DNA of 38,066 nucleotides from Acidimicrobiaceae bacterium (GTDB lineage: Bacteria; Actinomycetota; Acidimicrobiia; Acidimicrobiales; UBA8190), in NCBI GenBank assembly GCA_003139255.1, contig PLIG01000103.1, positions 29,458-67,523 of the forward strand, read 5' to 3'. Position numbers and translations under genes: made by a program. Below are positions 1,460 to 17,287 of this stretch, piece after piece; the stretch's first letter is position 1, and every line of letters begins with the position of its first letter. The notes beneath the pieces are model-generated. The model saw only the letters and a list, made by a program, of their open reading frames with translations. It did not search any database and had not been told where the DNA came from.

Positions 1460-3415
1460 TCACACCCGGACGGGATCGACCTCCACACGCAGCCGACCGG
1501 AGGGGCGCCTCACATCGGCGAGCAAAGCACACAGCTCTGAGCGCCGTTCGGCGCGCACCGACCATCTGCCGTCGACAGGTCCGCTCACCTCGACGCTGCG
1601 CGGCGCCGCCTCTCGCAACGCCTCACCGTAGGCGTCGGCGGCCGCGCCAGAAACCACCGCCAGCGCGCTGAACGGGGGGAGCCGCAGCGCCTGGCGCACC
1701 GGGCGCTCAGCCTCCGACACGCGCCCGGGATCGGCCGACACGGCTGCAGCGAGCACCTCGTGTCCAGGCATGCGAGTCTGTACGAGTACCTGGCCCGAGG
1801 CACGACCCGAGGGGCCCCGCGAACCCGTAGACCCCGCCACCACCCGAGAGGCGCGCGCCAGCAAGGTAAGCGCCTCCTCTGCAGCGCGCATCCTCGGCGC
1901 CAGCAGCTCGGCGTCGAAGTCCAAGAAGACCACCGCATCGGCCTCCTCCGCCCGGTGCAACACCGCCTCGGTCCCCACGACCACGGCGGCACCGAACTCG
2001 CCCCGGCTCCGGTGAGCATTCCAGGGGCCCGGCGCCGACACATCGGCACCATCGCTTGGTCGCTGTGCCCCAGAGGCCGCTCGCCGGCCAGCCGTACCCC
2101 ACACCTCGGCCACAGCTACTCCGGCGAGAGCTTCGAGTTCCTCGCGCGCTCGTGACACGCCTACGCGAAGCACACGCATACGCCCCGCGCCGCACCGCGC
2201 GCAGACCACGGGGCGCTGGGCGCCACAGCGCCGGCAACGCAACCGGGGCGCAGCAGCGTCTTCTGTGAGCTCCAGAGCCCCGCTGCAGCGCTCGCAGCGA
2301 GCAAGCTCGAAGCAAGAGGCGCACGCCAGCAGGCGCGCCCGTCCCGTGCGGTTCAACACGCACAACACCCGCCGCCCCGGTCGCTCTCCCGCCGAGCGAA
2401 CCAGCGATACCAGGCGCTCCGAGAACAACCCCGTGCGCGGGTCGTCGCCACGACGATCGACTATCTCTAGTGCCGGCCACCCCTCGCGCTCGGCACGTCG
2501 AGAGGATCTGACAAGCCTTCCTGCACCGAGCAGGTCCAGCGTCGGACACGACGACACGAGCGCGCAGGGCGCCGCGTCGCGTCTCGCCCGCTCCGCCACC
2601 AGCTCCCAGGCGCACCAAGTGGGAGCGCGCTGCTCGTGGTATCCCTCGTCGTGAGCGTCGAGGACGAGCGCACCTGCGAGACGCGGCAGCGGAGCGAGCG
2701 CAGCCGTGCGCGTGCCGACCACCACGCATCCGCCGGCGCGGGCGACCGACCAGTCCTCGGGTAGCAACGCCACCGGTCGTCCCGAGCCCGAGAGCCGGGC
2801 CGCGAGCCGCCCGGCCCGGTCGTGCTCTGGGACCAAGACGAGTACTCCGGCGCCCTGCGGGGCACCTTCTAGAAGTCCTGCACCGGCCATGACGAGGGGG
2901 TAGAGGTCCACTGCGGGCGCCAGGCGCACCACGACCGTACCGCCGGAGAACGCCTCATCGAACGTCTCGCCCAAGAGAATCCCCGTATCGGAGAGCGAGA
3001 AAGCCGATCGAACCAGCGGTGCTCCTCCTGATGCTTGCGCGCGGCGCCCGTCACCAGCAGCACGAGATGTAGCAGGAGTCGGCGGCAGGGCCGCGACCGA
3101 CCGCGGGGCCGAAGCCGCCTTCAAGAACGCGACGACCGGACCCGCCCACCACCAGGCGGCCCACTGGGCGAGCAACATCACCGAGGGCGGCGGACCCCAA
3201 CCCCGCACCGCCTCGATCGGACGCAGGGTAACCCCAGGCCGCGGGGCTACGTCCTCCTCCACCACCCAGGCGATCACGCGACGGCCGTGGAGCACCACAC
3301 GCACCTGCGTGCCGACCCGAACACGGTCGTCCAACGAAACCGGGACCGTGTAGTCGAACGTCTTTCGGACAGCTGCGACGTCGGGCAGCACGCGAACGAC
3401 TCGCTCTATCGGCAC
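1460..3415 (-). CDS. priA: Primosomal protein N' (PriA), helicase-degenerate actinobacterial form
   Basis: PriA loads the replisome at stalled forks. The N-terminus (RVVRVLPDVAAVRKTFDYTV, then GTQVRVVLHGRRVIAWV) is the typical DNA-binding domain. Around residue 158, where a working helicase has the GSGKT P-loop, this protein reads VVVRLAPAVDLYP, and the DEEHD box is replaced by LDAHDEGYHEQ near residue 252. The zinc-binding region with eight cysteines in CxxC-type pairs is intact at roughly residues 368-413. Loss of helicase motifs with retention of the zinc domain is known for actinobacterial PriA, so it is probably a structural primosome factor. GTG start at 3415, five bases after the metK stop. 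651 residues. Confidence 0.9.
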   Translation of the reverse strand: MPIERVVRVLPDVAAVRKTFDYTVPVSLDDRVRVGTQVRVVLHGRRVIAWVVEEDVAPRPGVTLRPIEAVRGWGPPPSVMLLAQWAAWWWAGPVVAFLKAASAPRSVAALPPTPATSRAAGDGRRAQASGGAPLVRSAFSLSDTGILLGETFDEAFSGGTVVVRLAPAVDLYPLVMAGAGLLEGAPQGAGVLVLVPEHDRAGRLAARLSGSGRPVALLPEDWSVARAGGCVVVGTRTAALAPLPRLAGALVLDAHDEGYHEQRAPTWCAWELVAERARRDAAPCALVSSCPTLDLLGAGRLVRSSRRAEREGWPALEIVDRRGDDPRTGLFSERLVSLVRSAGERPGRRVLCVLNRTGRARLLACASCFELARCERCSGALELTEDAAAPRLRCRRCGAQRPVVCARCGAGRMRVLRVGVSRAREELEALAGVAVAEVWGTAGRRAASGAQRPSDGADVSAPGPWNAHRSRGEFGAAVVVGTEAVLHRAEEADAVVFLDFDAELLAPRMRAAEEALTLLARASRVVAGSTGSRGPSGRASGQVLVQTRMPGHEVLAAAVSADPGRVSEAERPVRQALRLPPFSALAVVSGAAADAYGEALREAAPRSVEVSGPVDGRWSVRAERRSELCALLADVRRPSGRLRVEVDPVRV

Positions 3416-7341: not shown

Positions 7342-8058
7342 TCATACCCTCCGGTCGGCAGCCGATGCGGCGACTTCATCCATAAGGGCCGAGGCAACGC
7401 GCTCGGGGTCCGGCGCTGCGGTCACCGCGCGTCCGATGACGAGCACGTCAGCACCCGAGGCGAGTGCCACCGCTGGAGTGGAGGGGCGAGCCTGGTCGTC
7501 GGCTCCGCTACCTTCCGGACGAATGCCAGGGACCACGGTCAAGAGCCCCGGTGCCGCCTTGCGCACGACCGGGAGATCTGAAGCCGCGCACACCACCCCT
7601 GCGCAACCGGTCGTCGCCGCCAACGCAGCCCGGAACTCGAGCACCTCGCGCGTAGCACTGCGATCACTGGTGAGCACGGTCACTCCGAGGACCCCCGGGG
7701 ACGACACGCCTGCGCCGGCAGCAGCGGCACCCTCGGCCATGCCCTGTAACGACGCCCTGAGCATCTCCTCGCCACCCGTGGTGTGGACGGTGGTATACGT
7801 GGCCCCGAGACCACCGATGACTCGCGCGGCACGCCTCACCGTTGTCGGTATGTCGTGGAGCTTCAGATCCAAGAAGACTCGATAACCCTCGACCGTGAGC
7901 GCGCAGACGACCTCAGGACCTGCGGCGGCGAAAAGCTCGAAACCCACCTTCGCCAGGCCGAACCACGGCCGCAGCCGTCGTGCCATGCGTAAAGCCAGCA
8001 CCAAGTCGTCGACGTCCAGGGCCAGGGCCAACCGCTGGCGAGGGTCATCGATCGGCAT
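7342..8058 (-). CDS. pyrF: Orotidine 5'-phosphate decarboxylase
   Basis: Last step of UMP synthesis. The 238-residue protein shows FLDLKLHDIPTTV, which holds the catalytic Asp-Lys-Asp set, and the phosphate-binding end VVPGIRPEG followed by ADVLVIGRAVTAAPDP. ATG at 8058 gives the expected N-terminus ([17 protein letters not shown]) and has a GGGAGG Shine-Dalgarno; the frame is open further upstream but that part lies inside pyrD and does not resemble the family. It overlaps the end of pyrD by 14 bases. Confidence 0.95.
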   Translation of the reverse strand: MPIDDPRQRLALALDVDDLVLALRMARRLRPWFGLAKVGFELFAAAGPEVVCALTVEGYRVFLDLKLHDIPTTVRRAARVIGGLGATYTTVHTTGGEEMLRASLQGMAEGAAAAGAGVSSPGVLGVTVLTSDRSATREVLEFRAALAATTGCAGVVCAASDLPVVRKAAPGLLTVVPGIRPEGSGADDQARPSTPAVALASGADVLVIGRAVTAAPDPERVASALMDEVAASAADRRV

Positions 8059-9088
8059 CGCCGTCGCCTCCCGGCGAGCTCGGCGTTCGAGCAATCCGAT
8101 GTTCCTGGTCGCTCGTGAGCCGTCTATCGTCGGTGCCTCGCACGCAGCCTCCGTCGTGGACGGCACCCACAAGGGACCGAGCGCTTCCCACCCCCTGCCA
8201 CCGGCACCACCGCGCCAGACCCGCTAGCACCTTCGCAGGCGCTCGCGGATCTCGGAAGGTGGCCGTACCCACCTCCAACGCGTCTGCGCCGGCCATAAGC
8301 ATCGCGACCGCGTCCACGCCTCGCGCCACACCGCCCACGCCGACGATGCCCGCGCCCGGGAAGGCGGCCCGGCAGTCGTGCACCGCGCGCAGCGCGACGG
8401 GCCTGATGGCCGGACCCGACAACCCTCCGCCGCCCGGTCCGGAGCCGAGCGCGTACGCGCGTCTGCGGACGTCCACGGCCATGCCCAAGAGCGTGTTCAC
8501 GAGCACGAGCGTCTCGGCTCCCGCCTCTAGAGCGGCGCCGGCGACCTCCAACAAGTCAGAGACATTCGGGCTGAGCTTGGCCCACCGCGGCAGTCCGCAG
8601 GCTTCAGTTGCTGCCACAGCATCAGCTGTTGCCCGTGCCGAGTGCGCGAACATCCGGCTCCTGTCCTCGACGTTGGGGCAGCTGACATTCACCTCGACGG
8701 CGACCACCCCAGGTGCTCCTCCGATCAGCTCTGCCGCACGTGCATAGTCATCGACGTGCTGCCCCCAGATGCTCGCCACGACCCGGGCGCCGCGGTCGTT
8801 GAGCGCTGGAAGCTCGTCGCGCAGCCAGGCGGCGACACCCGGCCCTTGCAACCCCACCGAGTTGAGCATGCCGGCAGGTGTCTCGTGGATCCTGGGAGGG
8901 GGATTGCCAGGCCAAGGATCGGCACAAAGCGACTTCGCCACGACGGCGCCCAGGCTGGCGAGGTCGACGTAGGCGGCCAGTTCCGCGCCGTGACCCGCAG
9001 TGCCCGATGCGGTGAGCACGGGGTTCGGCAGGAGCACAGAGCCCACGTGCGTGCGCAGGTCCACCTGGGCGACGGGCCACGCCCTCAT
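8045..9088 (-). CDS. pyrD: Dihydroorotate dehydrogenase, class 1B catalytic subunit
   Basis: Oxidises dihydroorotate to orotate with FMN. Class 1B features are clear: [16 protein letters not shown], the [20 protein letters not shown] stretch, and NVSCPNVE with Cys as catalytic base (class 2 enzymes have Ser). Class 1B enzymes normally pass electrons to a PyrK Fe-S/FAD subunit, but no pyrK is in this window. The last 35 or so residues after SLVGAV ([11 protein letters not shown] onward) are a polar extension not expected in the family; they overlap pyrF by 14 bases. ATG at 9088 overlaps the carB stop as ATGA. 347 residues. Confidence 0.93.
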
Positions 9089-12000
9089 TCGCCGTGCACC
9101 TGGCTGTCCGGTCGGTGCCTCGCTGCGCCGTGCACCTCTTGCAAGCTGACGACCGATAGGCCGTATCTCTGCCAGTCGGCGATGCCCGTGGCCGCGGCGC
9201 GCGCCGCGGCCACGGTGGTCAGGCATGGCACCTGGTGGAGCAAAGCGGTGGAGCGGATGTGCAAACCGTCCGCGCGCGGTCCGCGACCACGCGGGGTGTT
9301 GACCACGAGCTGAACCTGTCCCGAGGAGATCAACCCGATCGCGTCCGCCGCGCTGATCTCGCCCACCTTCCCCACCACCGTCCTCACATGCACGCCGTTC
9401 GACTCCAAGAACGCCGCCGTCCCGGACGTACCGGCAAGCTCGAAGCCCAACGCGGCGAACACCCGCGCGGGCCCCAGCCCCGCCGCCTTGTCCCTGTCCG
9501 CCAGGGACAAAAAGACTGTGCCGGCCGAGGGAAGGCGGGTGCCAGCGGCGATCTGGCTCTTCGCAAACGCGAGCCCGAAGGTCCTCCCGACTCCCATGAC
9601 CTCGCCCGTCGAGCGCATTTCGGGGCCCAACAAGCTGTCAACTCCGGGAAACCGGCTGAACGGAAGAACGGCTTCCTTCACGCTCACCCAGCGGCCGTTG
9701 CTAGGTGGCTGGAGGAGCTTCTCCTCACGCAGCTGCGACAACGTCGCCCCCAGCATCACCCGAGCCGCCACCTTGGCCACAGGAACGCCCGTCGCCTTCG
9801 CCACGAACGGCACAGTGCGGCTGGCACGCGGGTTGGCCTCCAGGACGTGTCCTTTCCCGTCCTTCACGGCGAACTGCACGTTCAAGAGGCCGATCACGCC
9901 GAGCGACTCGGCGATCGCGCGCGTGTGGCCTTCGAGCTCTGCGACCACCTGCGGAGGCAGGGTCTGCGGCGGCAGCGCGCACGCCGAGTCGCCGGAATGG
10001 ACGCCCGCCTCCTCGACGTGCTCCATCACCCCTGCCACGAGCACCTCGCCCGATGCGTCGCGCACCGCGTCGACGTCCACCTCGATCGCGTCCTCGAGAA
10101 ACCGGTCGACGAGCACAGGGCGCTCGACCGAGACTGCGCCCTCGCTCCTCAAAGAACCCGAAAGGGCCGACACCGCTTGCTCGAGGCGCTCGTCGTCGTA
10201 GACGATCTCCATGGCTCGTCCTCCGAGCACATAGCTCGGTCTCACGAGCACCGGGTAGCCGACCTTCGCCGCGACCGCCAACGCCTCCGCGACCGTCGTG
10301 GCCGTGCCACCAGCGGGTTGGGGGATCCCGAGCCGCTCGCAAAGCGCGTTCCACCGCTCGCGGTCCTCTGCCAGGTCGATCGAGGAAGGCGAGGTGCCGA
10401 GCACGAGCCGCGAGTCGATCGCGTGCGCCAACTTGAGCGGCGTTTGGCCGCCCAGCGAGACGATCACGCCCGCGAAGCGCTCACCATCGGCCGCAGATCC
10501 GTTGCCTGCCTCTCCACTTTCTGCTTCGATCACGTTCGCCACGTCCTCGGCGGTGAGCGGTTCGAAGTAGAGACGGTCCGACGTGTCGTAGTCGGTCGAG
10601 ACGGTCTCGGGATTGCAGTTGACCATGATGGTCTCGTAGCCGGCCGCCCGCAGCGCCATCGACGCGTGCACGCAGCAATAGTCGAATTCGATCCCCTGGC
10701 CGATGCGGTTCGGCCCCGACCCGAGGATCACGACACGAGGCCGCTCCCCCAGGTGCACCTCGTCTTCGTCCTCGTACGTGGCGTAGTGATAGGGGGTGCG
10801 AGCCGCGAACTCGGCGCTGCAGGTGTCAACGGTCTTGAAAGTGGCCCGCACACCCACCTCGGTGCGCCGAGCACGCACTTGTCCCTCATTCAGCATCGAG
10901 TCCGTAGCGGCGGGGCTGTTGCCGTCTCGTGAGCCCTCGCCGAAGTGGGCACCCTGCGCGTCGGCAGCGGCACGCCCCGAGAACAGGCCCGAGAACAGGT
11001 AAGCGATCTGCGCATCGGAGAAACCGAGACGTTTCACGTCTCGCCAGGACCTGCGGTCGAGCCCCCCGACCCCTCCGCCGGCTCGCGCGAGCGCCTCGAG
11101 GCGTAGGCGCGCAGCTGTGATCCTCCCCAACTGATAGACGAACCACGGGTCGACGCCCGTCGACTCTGCCAGAGCGTCAGGGGTGACGCCGCGCCGCAGA
11201 GCAGCCTCCATATGGAAGACCCGCTCTGGAGTCGGCTCACGCGCCCGCGTCATCAGCTCCTCGTCGTCGAGCAGCTCGTAAGCAGCCTCGGCCGGGTCCG
11301 CGTTCAGGCCTGCCCGGTCCTGTTCGAGCGAGCGAATTGCCTTCTGCAGTGACTCGGGAAACGTACGGCCGATTGCCATCACCTCTCCTACTGACTGCAT
11401 ACGTGTTCCCAGGTGGTCGACGCTCCCGGGAAGCTTCTCGAACGCCCAGCGCGGAATCTTCGTCACCACGTAGTCGATGGTGGGCTCGAAGCACGCGGGC
11501 GTGACACCCGTGATGTCGTTGGCAATCTCATCGAGCGTGTAGCCGACCGCCAAGCGCGCAGCGATCTTGGCGATGGGAAAACCCGTCGCCTTCGACGCCA
11601 ACGCGGAAGAGCGCGAGACACGCGGGTTCATCTCGATCACCACGCGCCGGCCGTCAGTGGGGTCGACGGCAAATTGGATGTTGGACCCGCCCGTCTCTAC
11701 CCCGACGCGCCGGATACAGGCAAAAGCGTCGTCTCGCATGGCCTGGTACTCGACATCGGAAAGAGTCTGCGCGGGAGCCACCGTGATGGAATCACCTGTG
11801 TGAACTCCCATAGGGTCGAGGTTCTCGATCGAGCACACGACGACGCAGTTGTCCACACGATCGCGCATCACCTCGAGCTCGAACTCCTTCCACCCTCGTA
11901 TGGAACGCTCGATCAGGACACGTGACACGGGGCTGGCGGCGAGCCCTTCCGCCGCCACCCGGGCAAGGGTCTCACGGTCTTGCGCGGTACCGCTGCCCGC

Positions 12001-12528
12001 CCCCCCGAGGATGAAGCTCGGACGCACGATGAGCGGGAAGCCCACGGCCTGCCCCACGGCCATCGCCTCGTCCAAAGAGCTCGCGAAGCCTGACGCGGGA
12101 ACCTCCAGCCCGATCTCCCCCATGGCCTCCTTGAACCGGTCACGGTCCTCCGCGGTGGCGATCGCCTCGGCGTTCGCCCCGATGAGCTCCACCTCGAGCT
12201 GCGCGAGCAGCCCGCTACCCGCGAGCTCCATCGCCAGGTTCAGACCTGTCTGGCCCCCCAGGGTGGGAAGGATCGCCTCGGGCCTCTCGCGTTCGACTAT
12301 GGCGGCGAGAACGTCGGCGTCGAGAGGCTCCACGTAGGTGCGATCCGCCAGCTCCGGATCGGTCATGATCGTTGCAGGGTTCGAGTTGGCAAGCACGACG
12401 CGGTATCCCTCGGCGCTGAGCACTCGGCACGCCTGAGAACCCGAGTAGTCGAACTCACACGCCTGGCCGATCACGATCGGGCCGGAGCCGATCACGAGGA
12501 TCGTCTCGATGTCGGTTCGCCGGGGCAT
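9085..12528 (-). CDS. carB: Carbamoyl-phosphate synthase, large subunit
   Basis: Makes carbamoyl phosphate for pyrimidines and arginine from bicarbonate, ATP and ammonia passed from CarA. It holds the two homologous ATP-grasp halves: the first starts [20 protein letters not shown], the second [20 protein letters not shown], and the C-terminal allosteric MGS-like domain follows ([20 protein letters not shown]). At 1147 residues it is longer than the usual 1060-1110. The excess is mainly a low-complexity stretch at about residues 511-549 in the linker between the halves, beginning [16 protein letters not shown]. The ATG at 12528 shares one base with the carA stop (TGATG). Confidence 0.98.
10976..10999. 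repeat. 12-bp tandem duplication inside carB
   Basis: CCCGAGAACAGG is present twice in a row (10976-10987, 10988-10999) and encodes LFSG-LFSG at the edge of the extra linker segment of CarB. It looks like a replication-slippage duplication that kept the frame. Confidence 0.85.
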
Positions 12529-13709
12529 CAGACGTCGACCTCGACTTCTTTCCCCATCAGCTTGCGGAACTCCTCGAACAGGTAGCGCGCGTCGTGCGGG
12601 CCGGGACCTGCCTCGGGGTGGTACTGCACGCCGAAGGCTGCCAGGTCGGCACAGCGAAAGCCTTCGACCACACCGTCGTTCAGGTTGACGTGGGTGACCT
12701 CTGTCGCGCTGGCGCCACGTTGGGGCAAGGAAGCGGCTTCGACCGCGTAATTGTGGTTCTGGCTCGTGATCTCGACTCGGCCGGTGTCGAGCCGGCGAAC
12801 AGGGTGGTTGCCGCCGTGGTGCCCGAACGGAAGCTTGAAGGTGCGTGCGCCGAGGGCCGCGCCGAGCAATTGGTGACCGAGACAGATGCCGAATGTCGGC
12901 ACCTTTCCAAGGAGCTCGGAGATTATGCCGGCCTGGGTTCCGAGCGCGGCGGGGTCGCCGGGACCGTTCGACAGGAGCACGCCGTCGGGATCCATGTCCA
13001 GGGCATCCGCCGCCGGGAAAGAGGCCGGCACGACAGTGATCCTGGCAAGCCGACCCAGGTTGCGCAGCATGGTCTGCTTCACTCCGAAGTCGTAGGCCAC
13101 CACCCGCAGCGGTCCCGACCCGTGCTCATAGGGCGTTCGGGTGGTCACCTCGGAGACGAGGTCCTTCCCGGTCGTGCCCGGCTCTGCCGTTGCCGCTTCG
13201 CGCAGCTCGCAGTAGTCCGCGGTGCCGAACGCGCACCCCATCGCTCCGTCTTCGCGTAAATGCCTTGTGAGCCTGCGCGTGTCGACCCCGGAGATCCCCG
13301 GTATCCCGTTTCGGATAAGGAGCTCCTCGAGCGACCCTGCCGCGCGCCACGACGAGTGACGCGACGTGAGGTCGCGCACCACGATGCCGCGGCACCAAGG
13401 GTGGCGCGCCTCGTTGTCGGATGGGTTGACCCCGTAATTGCCGATGTGGGGGTAGGTGAAGGCGACGACCTGGCCCGCGTAGCTCGGATCGGTGAGGACC
13501 TCCTGGTATCCGCAGAGCACCGTGTTGAACACGAGCTCCCCATGAGCCAGGCCGTCCGGCGGCGCCGCTCCCACGGCCTCACCCTCGAACACCTCCCCGT
13601 CGGCGAGGACGAGGAGAGCGAGAGGACGTTCCTCCGAAGGATCTCCCCCTCCACCAGAGCCGGCGCCATCGGTGCCCCGTCGCGAGGCGCCGGAGGGCGC
13701 AGTAGTCAC
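12528..13709 (-). CDS. carA: Carbamoyl-phosphate synthase, small (glutaminase) subunit
   Basis: Releases ammonia from glutamine for CarB. The N-terminal domain has the usual [12 protein letters not shown] start and [20 protein letters not shown]. The class I glutaminase domain has SNGPGDP, the nucleophile in [11 protein letters not shown], and the catalytic His-Glu in [16 protein letters not shown] at 13709 overlaps the pyrC stop as GTGA and gives 393 residues; no other start was found before the conserved region, although the first 25 residues (Gly- and Ser-rich) are not typical. The frame is open upstream inside pyrC but without family similarity. Confidence 0.95.
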
Positions 13710-15133
13710 CTCTGAGCCTCGGCGCCGACCACCACCGGCTCGCCGGCGCATATCGTGTGACGGACACGACCAGTGAGCTTCCGACCCGCCCACGGTGTGT
13801 TTCGGCTGCGGCTGGCCATCCGGAGGGGATCGACCACCCAGCTTTCCGTCGGGTCGAACACACAGAGGTTCGCCGGAGCGCCGGGCGTGATCGGACCACC
13901 CTGGTCGCCGCCCTGGCACAGTGCCATCTGAGCGATGCGCGCAGGACGCCACGACATCAAGCCCACGACGTCACGTGTGGACAGTCGCGACAGCTGCTCG
14001 CCGCTCGCGCTGTACAGCGGCGACCCCTCACCACCGCACAGCGCGCCCAACACGACAGCGAGCGCCGTCTCGAGCCCGAGCATCCCCGGGGCGGCGTCCG
14101 CAAGAGGCACGTCCTTGGCCTCGGGCCGATGCGGCGCATGGTCGGTGGCGATCGCGTCGACGGTCCCGGCGACACACCCCTTGCGAAGTGCGGCGACATC
14201 TGCGGCCGTACGCAACGGCGGGTACACCTTGAACGCCGTGTCGTAGTCCGCGAGCTCGGCGTCGGTAAACGCGAGGTGATGGGGCGTCACCTCCCCCGTA
14301 ACAGCAAGTCCTTCCGCCTTGGCCGCGCCAAGTAGGACCACCGAGCCGGCAGAGGACAGATGCAACAGGTGCAGCCGTCCCTTCGTCAAGCGTACGAGCG
14401 CTATGTCGCGCGCCACCATGAGCTCCTCGGCCTCCGCCGGCACACCGGGAACACCCAAGCGGCTCGACCACTCACCCTCGTGCATTGCCGCGCCCGGCGC
14501 GAGAGCGCGGTCCTCGCAGTGCTCGGCCAGAGTGACCCCGAGCCCACGCGCGTACTCCAACGCGCGCCGCATGACACCGGAGTCCTGCACGCCTGCACCG
14601 TCGTCGGTGAAGAGCCGAACCCCGAGGTCCGCGAGCTCCCCCATCGGGGCGAGATGTTCGCCGGCGCGTCCAACCGTGATCGTCCCTGCCACCGCGATCT
14701 TGCAGACGGCGCCGGCTCCGAGCGCCAGCACTTCCGACGCGACCGCTGCATTGTCGAGAGGGGGATCCGTGTTCGGCATGGCCACGACCGCCGTGAACCC
14801 CCCGAGCGCCGCGGCACGCGCGCCGGTGTCGATGCACTCGGCGTCTTCGTTCCCCGGCTCGCGCAGGTGGACGTGCAAGTCGACCAGCCCTGGCACCACC
14901 AAGCAACCCCCGGCATCTAGGACGGTCGCACCGCTCGGAACCTCCAGGCCTTCGCCCACCGCGCTCACAGTGCCACCCGAGCACACAACGTCGGCCCGCC
15001 GTTGTCCACTCTCGTCGATGACGGTCCCGCCGCGGACCACCACGGTCGGAACCGTGCCGGGCACGCGCGCCGCGCCGCGATGTGTCACCGGTGGCGCTTC
15101 GGTGGGCTCAGGCACCGCTCGTCTCCCAGGCAT
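13706..15133 (-). CDS. pyrC: Dihydroorotase, type I
   Basis: Cyclises carbamoyl aspartate to dihydroorotate. The amidohydrolase metal site begins [16 protein letters not shown]; further landmarks are the HCED and HLSSA histidines, TPHHL and the Asp of ATDHAPH. This is the multidomain type I form normal for Actinobacteria and Firmicutes, not the short E. coli type. ATG at 15133 gives 475 residues and overlaps pyrB by 26 bases; a GTG at 15088 (residue 16) would shorten the overlap and also keep the whole domain, so the start is uncertain. The 3' end overlaps carA as GTGA. Confidence 0.95.
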
Positions 15134-16205
15134 CTTCTAGCCCTGCAACAGCTCCGGCGGGGCTCTTGCCCTGTGGCGTCCCGAGAAGCATGAACAACAC
15201 GGCCATGCGCACCGCTACACCGTTCGCGACCTGCCGCAATATCACCGAGCCGGGAAGGTCGGGAACCTCGTCAGCGATCTCCACACCGCGGTTCATCGGC
15301 CCGGGGTGCATCACGAGCGCCCCGTCGGCCAACGTCGCCGCGCGTCGGGCATTGAGCCCGTAGGCGGCCGCGTACTCGCGCACGGACGGCAGGAAACGGC
15401 CCGCGCCACGTTCGCCTTGCAGGCGCAGCAGATAGCACACGTCGGTCTGCGGAAGCACTTCGTCGAGGTCGTGCGACACACCGGCCACCGGCCAAGCTTC
15501 GACAGCAGGGGGCAGCAGTGTTCCAGGTGCAACGAGCGTCACCCGTGCCCCTAGGGCGCCGAACGCGAGCACGCTCGACCGCGCGACTCGGCTGTGGCGG
15601 ACGTCACCGACGATGGCGACACGCAGACCTTTGAAGCACTCCACTCCGGTCTCGGCAGGTGCGCGGCCGTCTCGCTCGGCGAGGACCTGGCGGATCGTGC
15701 AGCAGTCGAGCAGCGCCTGAGTGGGGTGCTCGTGCCATCCGTCGCCAGCGTTCAAGACGCAGGTGTCTACCCAACGGGCCACCGCCGCGGGAGCACCGGC
15801 AGCAGAGTGCCGGACCACGAACGCGTCTACCCCCATCGCGGCGACCGTCTCCACCGTGTCGCGCAACGACTCGCCTTTCTTCAGCGAAGATGAGCTCGCG
15901 TTGAACGACAGGACGTCAGCCGACAGCCGCTTTGCCGCCGTCTCGAACGACAGCTTCGTGCGCGTCGATTCTTCCACGAAAAGTGTCACCACCGTCTTGC
16001 CTCGGAGCGCGGGAACCTTGGGGATGTCCCGCTTGGAAACTTCGACGAACGCGTCGGCGACCCGCAACACCTCCTCGATGCCCTCGGCACCAAGGTCGGA
16101 CACCGACAGCAGGTGGCGCCGTGCACCAACGCTCGGGGCAGAATTCGTGTCAGTACCGGATTCGCCCCTGCGCTTCCCGGCGACCGCCTCCTGGTCAGAC
16201 GTCAT
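15108..16205 (-). CDS. pyrB: Aspartate carbamoyltransferase, catalytic chain
   Basis: Condenses carbamoyl phosphate with aspartate. The carbamoyl-phosphate loop reads FVEESTRTKLSFETAAKRL, followed by SSSLKKGESLRDTV, VVRHS and HEHPTQALLD; the C-terminal aspartate-binding domain has LLRLQGER and VMHPGPMNRGVEI. No pyrI regulatory subunit is present, as expected when PyrR controls the operon. The first 30 residues are a polar, low-conservation leader before HLLSVSDLG. ATG at 16205 overlaps the pyrR stop as ATGA. 365 residues, longer than the usual 305-320 because of this leader and a 3' tail (GTPQGKSPAGAVAG onward). Confidence 0.96.
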   Translation of the reverse strand: MTSDQEAVAGKRRGESGTDTNSAPSVGARRHLLSVSDLGAEGIEEVLRVADAFVEVSKRDIPKVPALRGKTVVTLFVEESTRTKLSFETAAKRLSADVLSFNASSSSLKKGESLRDTVETVAAMGVDAFVVRHSAAGAPAAVARWVDTCVLNAGDGWHEHPTQALLDCCTIRQVLAERDGRAPAETGVECFKGLRVAIVGDVRHSRVARSSVLAFGALGARVTLVAPGTLLPPAVEAWPVAGVSHDLDEVLPQTDVCYLLRLQGERGAGRFLPSVREYAAAYGLNARRAATLADGALVMHPGPMNRGVEIADEVPDLPGSVILRQVANGVAVRMAVLFMLLGTPQGKSPAGAVAGLEDAWETSGA

Positions 16206-16771
16206 CGGGCGAGCACGTCGCCGAGCACCACACCGTCGAGGCTGACGTCCACCTGCTCGTCGATGCGCGTCGGCATATTCTTCCCGACGTAATCGGGACG
16301 GATCGGGATCTCGCGATGGCCGCGGTCCACCATGACCGCGAGTTGCACAGCCCGCGCGCGGCCGTAGTCCGCCAATGCGTTGAGCGCCGCCCGCACGGTT
16401 CGGCCGGTGAACAGCACGTCGTCCACCAGCACCACCAGTCGCCCTGCGAGATCTTCTGGAATGTCGGTGACGGCCTCGGGGAGCACCGGACGGATGCCGA
16501 TGTCGTCGCGATAAAAGGCGACGTCCAAGGTGCCGGCGGAGACGGCAGTGCCCTCGATCTCCTCGAGCACCTGCGCCAAGCGCCTGGCCAGGGAAACGCC
16601 GCCCGTCTGCAACCCTATGACGACCACGTCGGAGAGACCGTGGTTGCGCTCGACGATCTCGTGGGCGATGCGGGTGATGGCCCGCGAGACATCCTCGGCA
16701 GACAACACCTGGACCCGAGGGACGAAGACCCCACCGCGAGGTGTGGTCAGTCTGCGCTCTCGCTCCGCCAC
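16202..16771 (-). CDS. pyrR: PyrR, pyrimidine operon RNA-binding regulator / uracil phosphoribosyltransferase
   Basis: PyrR binds pyr mRNA when UMP is abundant and shuts down expression; many also have uracil phosphoribosyltransferase activity. The PRPP-binding motif VVLVDDVLFTGRTVRAAL is intact and the family ending GDVLAR-like C-terminus is present. 189 residues. GTG at 16771 has a strong GGAGGAG Shine-Dalgarno at 16777-16783, and a PyrR-type hairpin lies immediately upstream at 16794-16811. It is the first gene of the pyr run, 93 bp after nusB. In Streptomyces a bldD gene is, as I recall, found between nusB and pyrR; none is here. Confidence 0.96.
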   Translation of the reverse strand: MAERERRLTTPRGGVFVPRVQVLSAEDVSRAITRIAHEIVERNHGLSDVVVIGLQTGGVSLARRLAQVLEEIEGTAVSAGTLDVAFYRDDIGIRPVLPEAVTDIPEDLAGRLVVLVDDVLFTGRTVRAALNALADYGRARAVQLAVMVDRGHREIPIRPDYVGKNMPTRIDEQVDVSLDGVVLGDVLAR

Positions 16772-16793
16772 TGGGGCTCCTCCGCGTTCCGTT

Positions 16794-16811
16794 CGGGCCT
16801 CACTGGACCCG
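16794..16811 (-). promoter_or_regulatory. PyrR-binding RNA hairpin in the pyrR leader
   Basis: The minus strand reads CGGGTCCAGTGAGGCCCG. CGGG pairs with CCCG, then after a bulged U, CC pairs with GG around an AGUGA loop. The core matches the published PyrR-binding pattern UCCNGNGAGGY at every fixed position. It ends ten bases before the pyrR Shine-Dalgarno, with no room for an antiterminator/terminator pair, which favours PyrR-dependent translational repression as reported in mycobacteria rather than the attenuation of Bacillus. Confidence 0.8.
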
Positions 16812-16829
16812 CTTCACGGTTGTCGGAAC

Positions 16830-16835
16830 ATGCTA
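16830..16835 (-). promoter_or_regulatory. Candidate -10 box of the pyr operon
   Basis: TAGCAT on the minus strand fits TAnnnT and would start RNA near 16823, giving a leader of about 50 bases that contains the PyrR hairpin and the ribosome-binding site. No -35 match is visible. The same hexamer occurs before the gene at 31891. Readthrough from nusB is also possible. Confidence 0.35.
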
Positions 16836-16864
16836 ACACGCCGCGTTCTCGAACCGCCTGGCAC

Positions 16865-17287
16865 TCAGGGGTGAAGCTGACGGGCGATGTGGGATAGGAC
16901 CCCGTTCACGAAGGCCCCGGATGCGTCTGTCGAATACTCCTTCGCCAACTCGACCGCCTCGTCGATCACCACCGCCACGGGAGTGCCCGGTTGGTCGAGC
17001 AGTTCGTAGGTGGCGAGCCGCAGGATCGTGCGGTCGACGATCGGCATGCGCCCGATCTCCCAACCCACCGCCGTACCGGCGACCAGGGAGTCGACTTGCG
17101 CGCGGCGACCGGCGACCCCTTTGACCAGCTTCACAGCGAACGGATCCGGCGTCGCCGGAAGCGCCTCCAGCAACATGGCGGGTTCCAAGGACTTGAGCTC
17201 GGCCTCGTAGAGCAGTGCCATTGCCTGCTCACGCGCCTCGTGGCGGGACCCTTCACCCTGCGCCGGTTGGCGGCGCCCAGCTGCCAC
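16865..17287 (-). CDS. nusB: Transcription antitermination factor NusB
   Basis: Binds boxA RNA with S10 to form the rRNA antitermination complex. The 140-residue protein has the family pattern HEAREQAMALLYEAEL at the start, then GRMPIVDRTILRLATYELLD and VVIDEAVELAKEYSTDASGAFVNGVL near the end. GTG at 17287, 22 bp after the efp stop. The efp-nusB pair is conserved widely in bacteria. Confidence 0.96.
   Translation of the reverse strand: MAAGRRQPAQGEGSRHEAREQAMALLYEAELKSLEPAMLLEALPATPDPFAVKLVKGVAGRRAQVDSLVAGTAVGWEIGRMPIVDRTILRLATYELLDQPGTPVAVVIDEAVELAKEYSTDASGAFVNGVLSHIARQLHP

Follow-up and report, generated by a model that had tools for sequence, protein, structure and literature searches.

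A PyrR-type hairpin with a variant lower stem before pyrR in an Acidimicrobiaceae bacterium, and its probable role in translational control

Here we analysed a 38,066-nt stretch of Acidimicrobiaceae DNA (the window) and found a PyrR-type RNA hairpin before pyrR. The presence of this hairpin is confirmed. It is very probably the PyrR-binding site of a pyrRBC-carAB-pyrDF operon, where PyrR-UMP would repress translation autogenously, with steric occlusion likelier than burial of the Shine-Dalgarno sequence. Covariation, co-occurrence with PyrR, an adjoining ribosome-binding site and the lack of a terminator support this translational reading, which the sequence-only reading of the same DNA had already proposed. 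Our verdict from the sequence comparisons is that the mechanism appears to be an ordinary, well-supported PyrR translational switch, while its RNA form has an altered lower stem and is missed by Rfam. Since the basic mechanism is already published, the surprise is modest.

The pyr leader and its hairpin

The pyr genes lie on the minus strand behind nusB and efp in the order pyrR-pyrB-pyrC-carA-carB-pyrD-pyrF, and all neighbours overlap, by 1 to 26 nt. The pyrR gene (16202-16771, GTG start) matches the NCBIfam PyrR equivalog NF003549 with 216.7 bits (cut-off 138). It shares an ATGA overlap with pyrB (15108-16205), which in turn overlaps pyrC (13706-15133) by 26 nt. The carA gene (12528-13709; Pfam CPSase_sm_chain and GATase) likely starts at GTG 13709, the likeliest among several candidates, in a GTGA overlap with pyrC, and has one base in common with carB (9085-12528). 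The ATG of pyrD at 9088 (8045-9088; Pfam DHO_dh) falls in an ATGA overlap with carB, and pyrF (7342-8058; Pfam OMPdecase) overlaps pyrD by 14 nt. Such overlaps are what translational coupling would need. The nusB-pyrR gap is 93 nt long and contains, in 5'-to-3' order on the minus strand, a predicted -10 element, a predicted transcription start, the hairpin and the pyrR Shine-Dalgarno sequence.

The complete predicted PyrR-binding hairpin spans 16789-16819 on the minus strand (covariance match 16787-16821; pairing checked) and has two parts, a CNGNGA hexaloop on a 6-bp upper stem and, beyond a purine internal loop, a lower stem. In the upper stem (16794-16811), which is paired in relatives, CGGGUC and GGCCCG pair with one U-G pair around the hexaloop CAGUGA (16800-16805), closed by UC/GG. 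The internal loop has GAAG (16812-16815) on its 5' side and a single A (16793) on its 3' side, and the lower stem joins CCGU (16816-16819) to ACGG (16789-16792). A pairing with a U bulge at the loop neck was dropped; the U-G pair and hexaloop agree with RNAalifold and with the Rfam PyrR model RF00515, and the hexaloop layout of the window hairpin is that of RF00515.

The sequence-only reading had noted an exact match to UCCNGNGAGGY with flanking CGGG/CCCG pairing. Both are present, the motif as TCCAGTGAGGC at 16797-16807 of the minus strand and the flanks at 16811-16808 and 16797-16794. That reading described the upper part of the hairpin correctly but overlooked the lower stem, the promoter and the M. 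smegmatis precedent in the literature; its range, 16772-16835, also included the -10 hexamer TAGCAT (16835-16830). The distance of ten bases that it gave between hairpin and GGAGGAG is right, but these bases are not a bare spacer, since they include the four bases ACGG (16792-16789), which pair with CCGU.

The pyrR Shine-Dalgarno sequence GGAGGAG (16777-16783) lies 12 to 6 nt before the GTG and is separated from the lower stem by 5 unpaired nt (16788-16784). In the leaders of the order, the distance from stem base to start codon has a median of 16 nt (IQR 13-17). Upstream of the hairpin we predict an extended -10 element, TGTTAGCAT, at 16830-16838 of the minus strand. A consensus promoter scan gave no -35/-10 pair at the window leader, so the promoter call rests on conservation: TANNNT stands 25-29 nt before the loop U in 115 of 123 order leaders, and at shifted positions in 0-4 of 122-124. 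Because this spacing is nearly fixed, the hairpin is predicted to form the 5' end of the transcript, which would start 2-4 nt before the stem in the order and at about 16823 in the window, seven bases downstream of the -10 element and 4 nt before the hairpin.

The earlier claim that there is no second hairpin with a T-tract holds, with no terminator-like site on either strand in 16500-17100. The antiterminator and intrinsic terminator that a PyrR transcription attenuator would have ahead of the first gene are absent from the window leader. It has instead the Mycobacterium smegmatis-type arrangement of a hairpin beside the first ribosome-binding site without a terminator.

Conservation of the hairpin and co-occurrence with PyrR

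The 11-base motif by itself is not significant: the window holds one match where 1.75 are expected, and the genome holds 97. The case for the hairpin beyond a chance motif comes from its position, its two stems and their conservation. The exact loop occurs shortly before pyrR in 117 of 124 distinct order leaders. Among 119 relatives, 98.9% of upper-stem cells are paired and three pairs have changed on both sides, while the compensatory changes of the lower stem comprise C-G to U-A in four sequences and G-C to A-U in one. In the internal loop, the A of alignment column 12 is invariant in all 119 sequences. Cells changed on both sides number 111, versus 37 in shuffles, and the covariation score is 0.238, versus 0.112. 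None of 500 shuffles scored as high, and slid controls reached at most 0.099. A check for covariation in relatives, the course advised in the sequence-only reading, thus found compensatory changes in both stems, above all shuffles and slid controls; a stricter set without the window's family agrees.

As the window was in the training set of covariance model R2, its match in its own genome was circular, and the window's family was left out of a further model, R3. With this family-excluded model the window site reaches 46.6 bits (E 1.9e-9) and the runner-up 22.2 bits, so that the genome has no second strong site. Weak second matches in genomes G007, G029, G040 and G186 were rejected as chance-like, with the loop missing. 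The isolated window leader has the folding energy of its shuffles (z 0.03), and when upstream sequence is included the minimum-energy fold is not the PyrR hairpin; on the predicted transcript, the upper stem forms with a probability of 0.91 and the lower stem with 0.64.

PyrR and the hairpin occur together in 57 of 60 relatives and are both absent from the same three, and the hairpin stands before pyrR in 57 of 57 order-level relatives having PyrR. No significant hairpin match was found in 14 genomes of the class that lack detectable PyrR, some of which are incomplete and several at least 94% complete. That the motif is there by chance and without function has a vanishingly small probability in our judgement: its expected frequency in the window would allow it, but covariation, conservation across the order and co-loss with PyrR refute it.

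The window hairpin lies in the pyr gene leader of a genome encoding PyrR. The protein matches solved PyrR structures, including 1A3C from B. subtilis and 1W30 from M. tuberculosis. It is identical at T18, R19, H22, R27, H140, R141, R146 and K152 (B. subtilis numbering), which we take from B. subtilis mutagenesis to be RNA-contact positions. Group-specific residues are found at positions 39 (L versus I) and 42 (G versus R) in Acidimicrobiales; none of these differences, which are inseparable from ancestry, is at a presumed RNA-contact position.

The lower stem and Shine-Dalgarno sequence across the phylum

The canonical lower stem CCUU(U)/AAGG is absent from the window hairpin, which has CCGU/ACGG, as does nearly the whole order. 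The canonical stem is typical for the family and unnecessary for the fold, and on account of its different lower stem we class the window site as a structural variant of the PyrR site. RF00515, which represents B. subtilis-type attenuators, has the same layout, in which a CNGNGA hexaloop on a 6-bp upper stem is joined through an internal loop of purines to a lower stem, but it covers 115 positions and includes an antiterminator, a terminator and a CCUU/AAGG lower stem. An RF00515 search of the window gave no match at E up to 10 and none at the gathering threshold, and tested Acidimicrobiales leaders reached at most 36 bits against a cut-off of 54. A covariance model is now given for this form.

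Most leaders outside the order, in other Actinomycetota, have the loop and upper-stem geometry of the window before pyrR but a CCUUUAA/AAGG lower stem; many of these leaders, in deeper lineages, are followed by a terminator and others are not. The Shine-Dalgarno sequence overlaps the stem in nine of the 11 CCUU-type leaders without a terminator and with a placeable pyrR start. Among the CCGU/ACGG leaders of sister orders there is overlap in 6/14, and in most of the others the sequence adjoins the stem; in Acidimicrobiales it overlaps in 3/112 (0/17 in the window's family). The median distance from stem end to start codon is 8, 10 and 16 nt in the CCUU-type leaders, the CCGU leaders of sister orders and Acidimicrobiales, respectively. 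This forms a natural series, from terminator to Shine-Dalgarno in the stem, overlapping or adjoining it, and outside it, which lets one ask how one RNA-protein contact serves attenuation, helix burial or steric block.

On the PyrR tree, each stem form takes one change, with SH-aLRT values of 81 for a single CCGU origin and 99 for Acidimicrobiales. One switch of the stem to CCGU would be the simplest reading, unproved since its support is only 81. We tentatively propose, at slightly less than even confidence, that within Acidimicrobiia CCUU/AAGG changed once to CCGU/ACGG and that the Shine-Dalgarno sequence then moved stepwise out of the stem (8, 10, 16 nt), from burial to a pure steric block.

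Several leaders depart from these forms. In deep-branching Actinomycetota (L216-L218, L229, L230, L248 and L258), the PyrR loop is followed by a terminator, with RF00515 scores of 41-61 bits. Four other leaders (L249, L268, L267 and L239) have a CCUUUAA-like 5' strand and a terminator, with the UCCNGNGAGG loop missing (e.g. GTACGAGATACC), and possibly contain a divergent PyrR site. In the CCUU-type leaders L283, L286, L296, L300 and L303, a start codon directly follows the hairpin, out of frame with pyrR in the scan, which suggests that short leader ORFs lie between the hairpin and pyrR, unless the assemblies are frameshifted. In another genome of the class (G075; L213, 406-550, plus strand), a CCGU/ACGG hairpin is followed after about 120 nt by a sequence resembling a terminator, which may fall within a longer reading frame of pyrR.

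Proposed mechanism and its rivals

From the computed structure, conservation and covariation, PyrR co-occurrence, lack of a terminator and spacing, we infer UMP-dependent PyrR binding, repression, coupled translation of the genes and the position of the transcription start. PyrR binding to RNA is enhanced by UMP and weakened by PRPP (PMC12369341). When UMP is high, PyrR-UMP would bind the hairpin at the extreme 5' end of the mRNA, and the protein and the stem it holds would cover a region from about 50 to 18 nt upstream of the GTG, directly next to the Shine-Dalgarno sequence. The 30S subunit would thereby be blocked from initiating on pyrR. The downstream pyr genes, taken to be translationally coupled because they overlap, would depend on this initiation and fall with pyrR. 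With PRPP high and UMP low, PyrR would release and the operon be translated.

In the window's species, constrained folding puts the accessibility of the Shine-Dalgarno sequence at 0.27 when free and 0.23 with the hairpin formed. Since this sequence lies outside the stem and its accessibility is hardly altered, a steric block by bound PyrR is more likely in these folding models than burial in a helix. That repression instead acts mainly by sequestration, with PyrR stabilising an extended stem in which the Shine-Dalgarno sequence is paired, we consider unlikely. It would fit the nine CCUU-type leaders with overlap, the lower Shine-Dalgarno accessibility with the hairpin formed in 29 of 113 leaders, and a further CUG/CAG helix (columns 3-5 with 39-41) that shows compensatory changes and extends towards the Shine-Dalgarno sequence in many Acidimicrobiales. 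However, overlap with the stem is confined to the three order leaders counted above, none from the window's family, and in the window's species accessibility is near constant and the CUG/CAG extension is unpaired. As a general mechanism, burial was rejected, being unsupported across the order by constrained folding; in some relatives the extended stem can reach the Shine-Dalgarno sequence, and there burial may contribute.

Transcription attenuation as in B. subtilis, in which the hairpin would serve as anti-antiterminator, is highly improbable here. Deeper lineages of the phylum carry the same loop and then a terminator, but there is none in the window, the anatomy contradicts it, and in most of the order only 9-20 nt separate the stem base from the start codon, too few to accommodate an antiterminator and a terminator. 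There is somewhat more, though still little, to be said for a hairpin that mainly affects mRNA stability or promoter escape: transcription is predicted to start 2-4 nt upstream of the stem, at a near-fixed spacing in the order. The fixed start-codon spacing and the recurrence of the hairpin beside carA ribosome-binding sites point to translation instead.

For the translational block by bound PyrR there is a precedent, as Fields and Switzer reportedly described PyrR-dependent translational repression of the M. smegmatis pyr operon in 2007 (J Bacteriol 189:6236). Like the window, that system has a loop for PyrR in its pyr leader and lacks a terminator, and the first ribosome-binding site is the proposed point of regulation. 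Set against CCUU-type leaders without terminators from elsewhere in the phylum, which usually hold the Shine-Dalgarno sequence in the lower stem, the window differs in having a CCGU/ACGG stem with the Shine-Dalgarno sequence outside it. A literature search for freely readable work on actinobacterial PyrR leaders returned reference-list mentions only. By analogy, our best reading is that the mechanism is the one already published for M. smegmatis, hence not new, with a different RNA form. With the window and its relatives, translational control by PyrR would reach an order that is known here mainly through genomes of uncultured bacteria.

Three relatives carry the hairpin a second time, before carA, and each of these copies is beside a ribosome-binding site. 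As the element recurs at the ribosome-binding sites of another pyr transcript, these copies argue for a putative PyrR regulon acting on translation. The second hairpin directly precedes carA in G234 (L211). In G145 (L209) and G018 (L203) it is followed by a short ORF, the stop codon of which overlaps the start of carA. The ORF of G145 (1923-2090, plus strand) has 35 codons and no clear likeness to pyrR. That of G018 (1974-2095, minus strand) has 24 codons (VSNTPDALCRPAGGAFVPGPGGPS) and resembles the start of pyrR at the protein and DNA level, a likeness matched by one of 300 shuffles; it looks as if a pyrR leader had been copied and reused to control carA.
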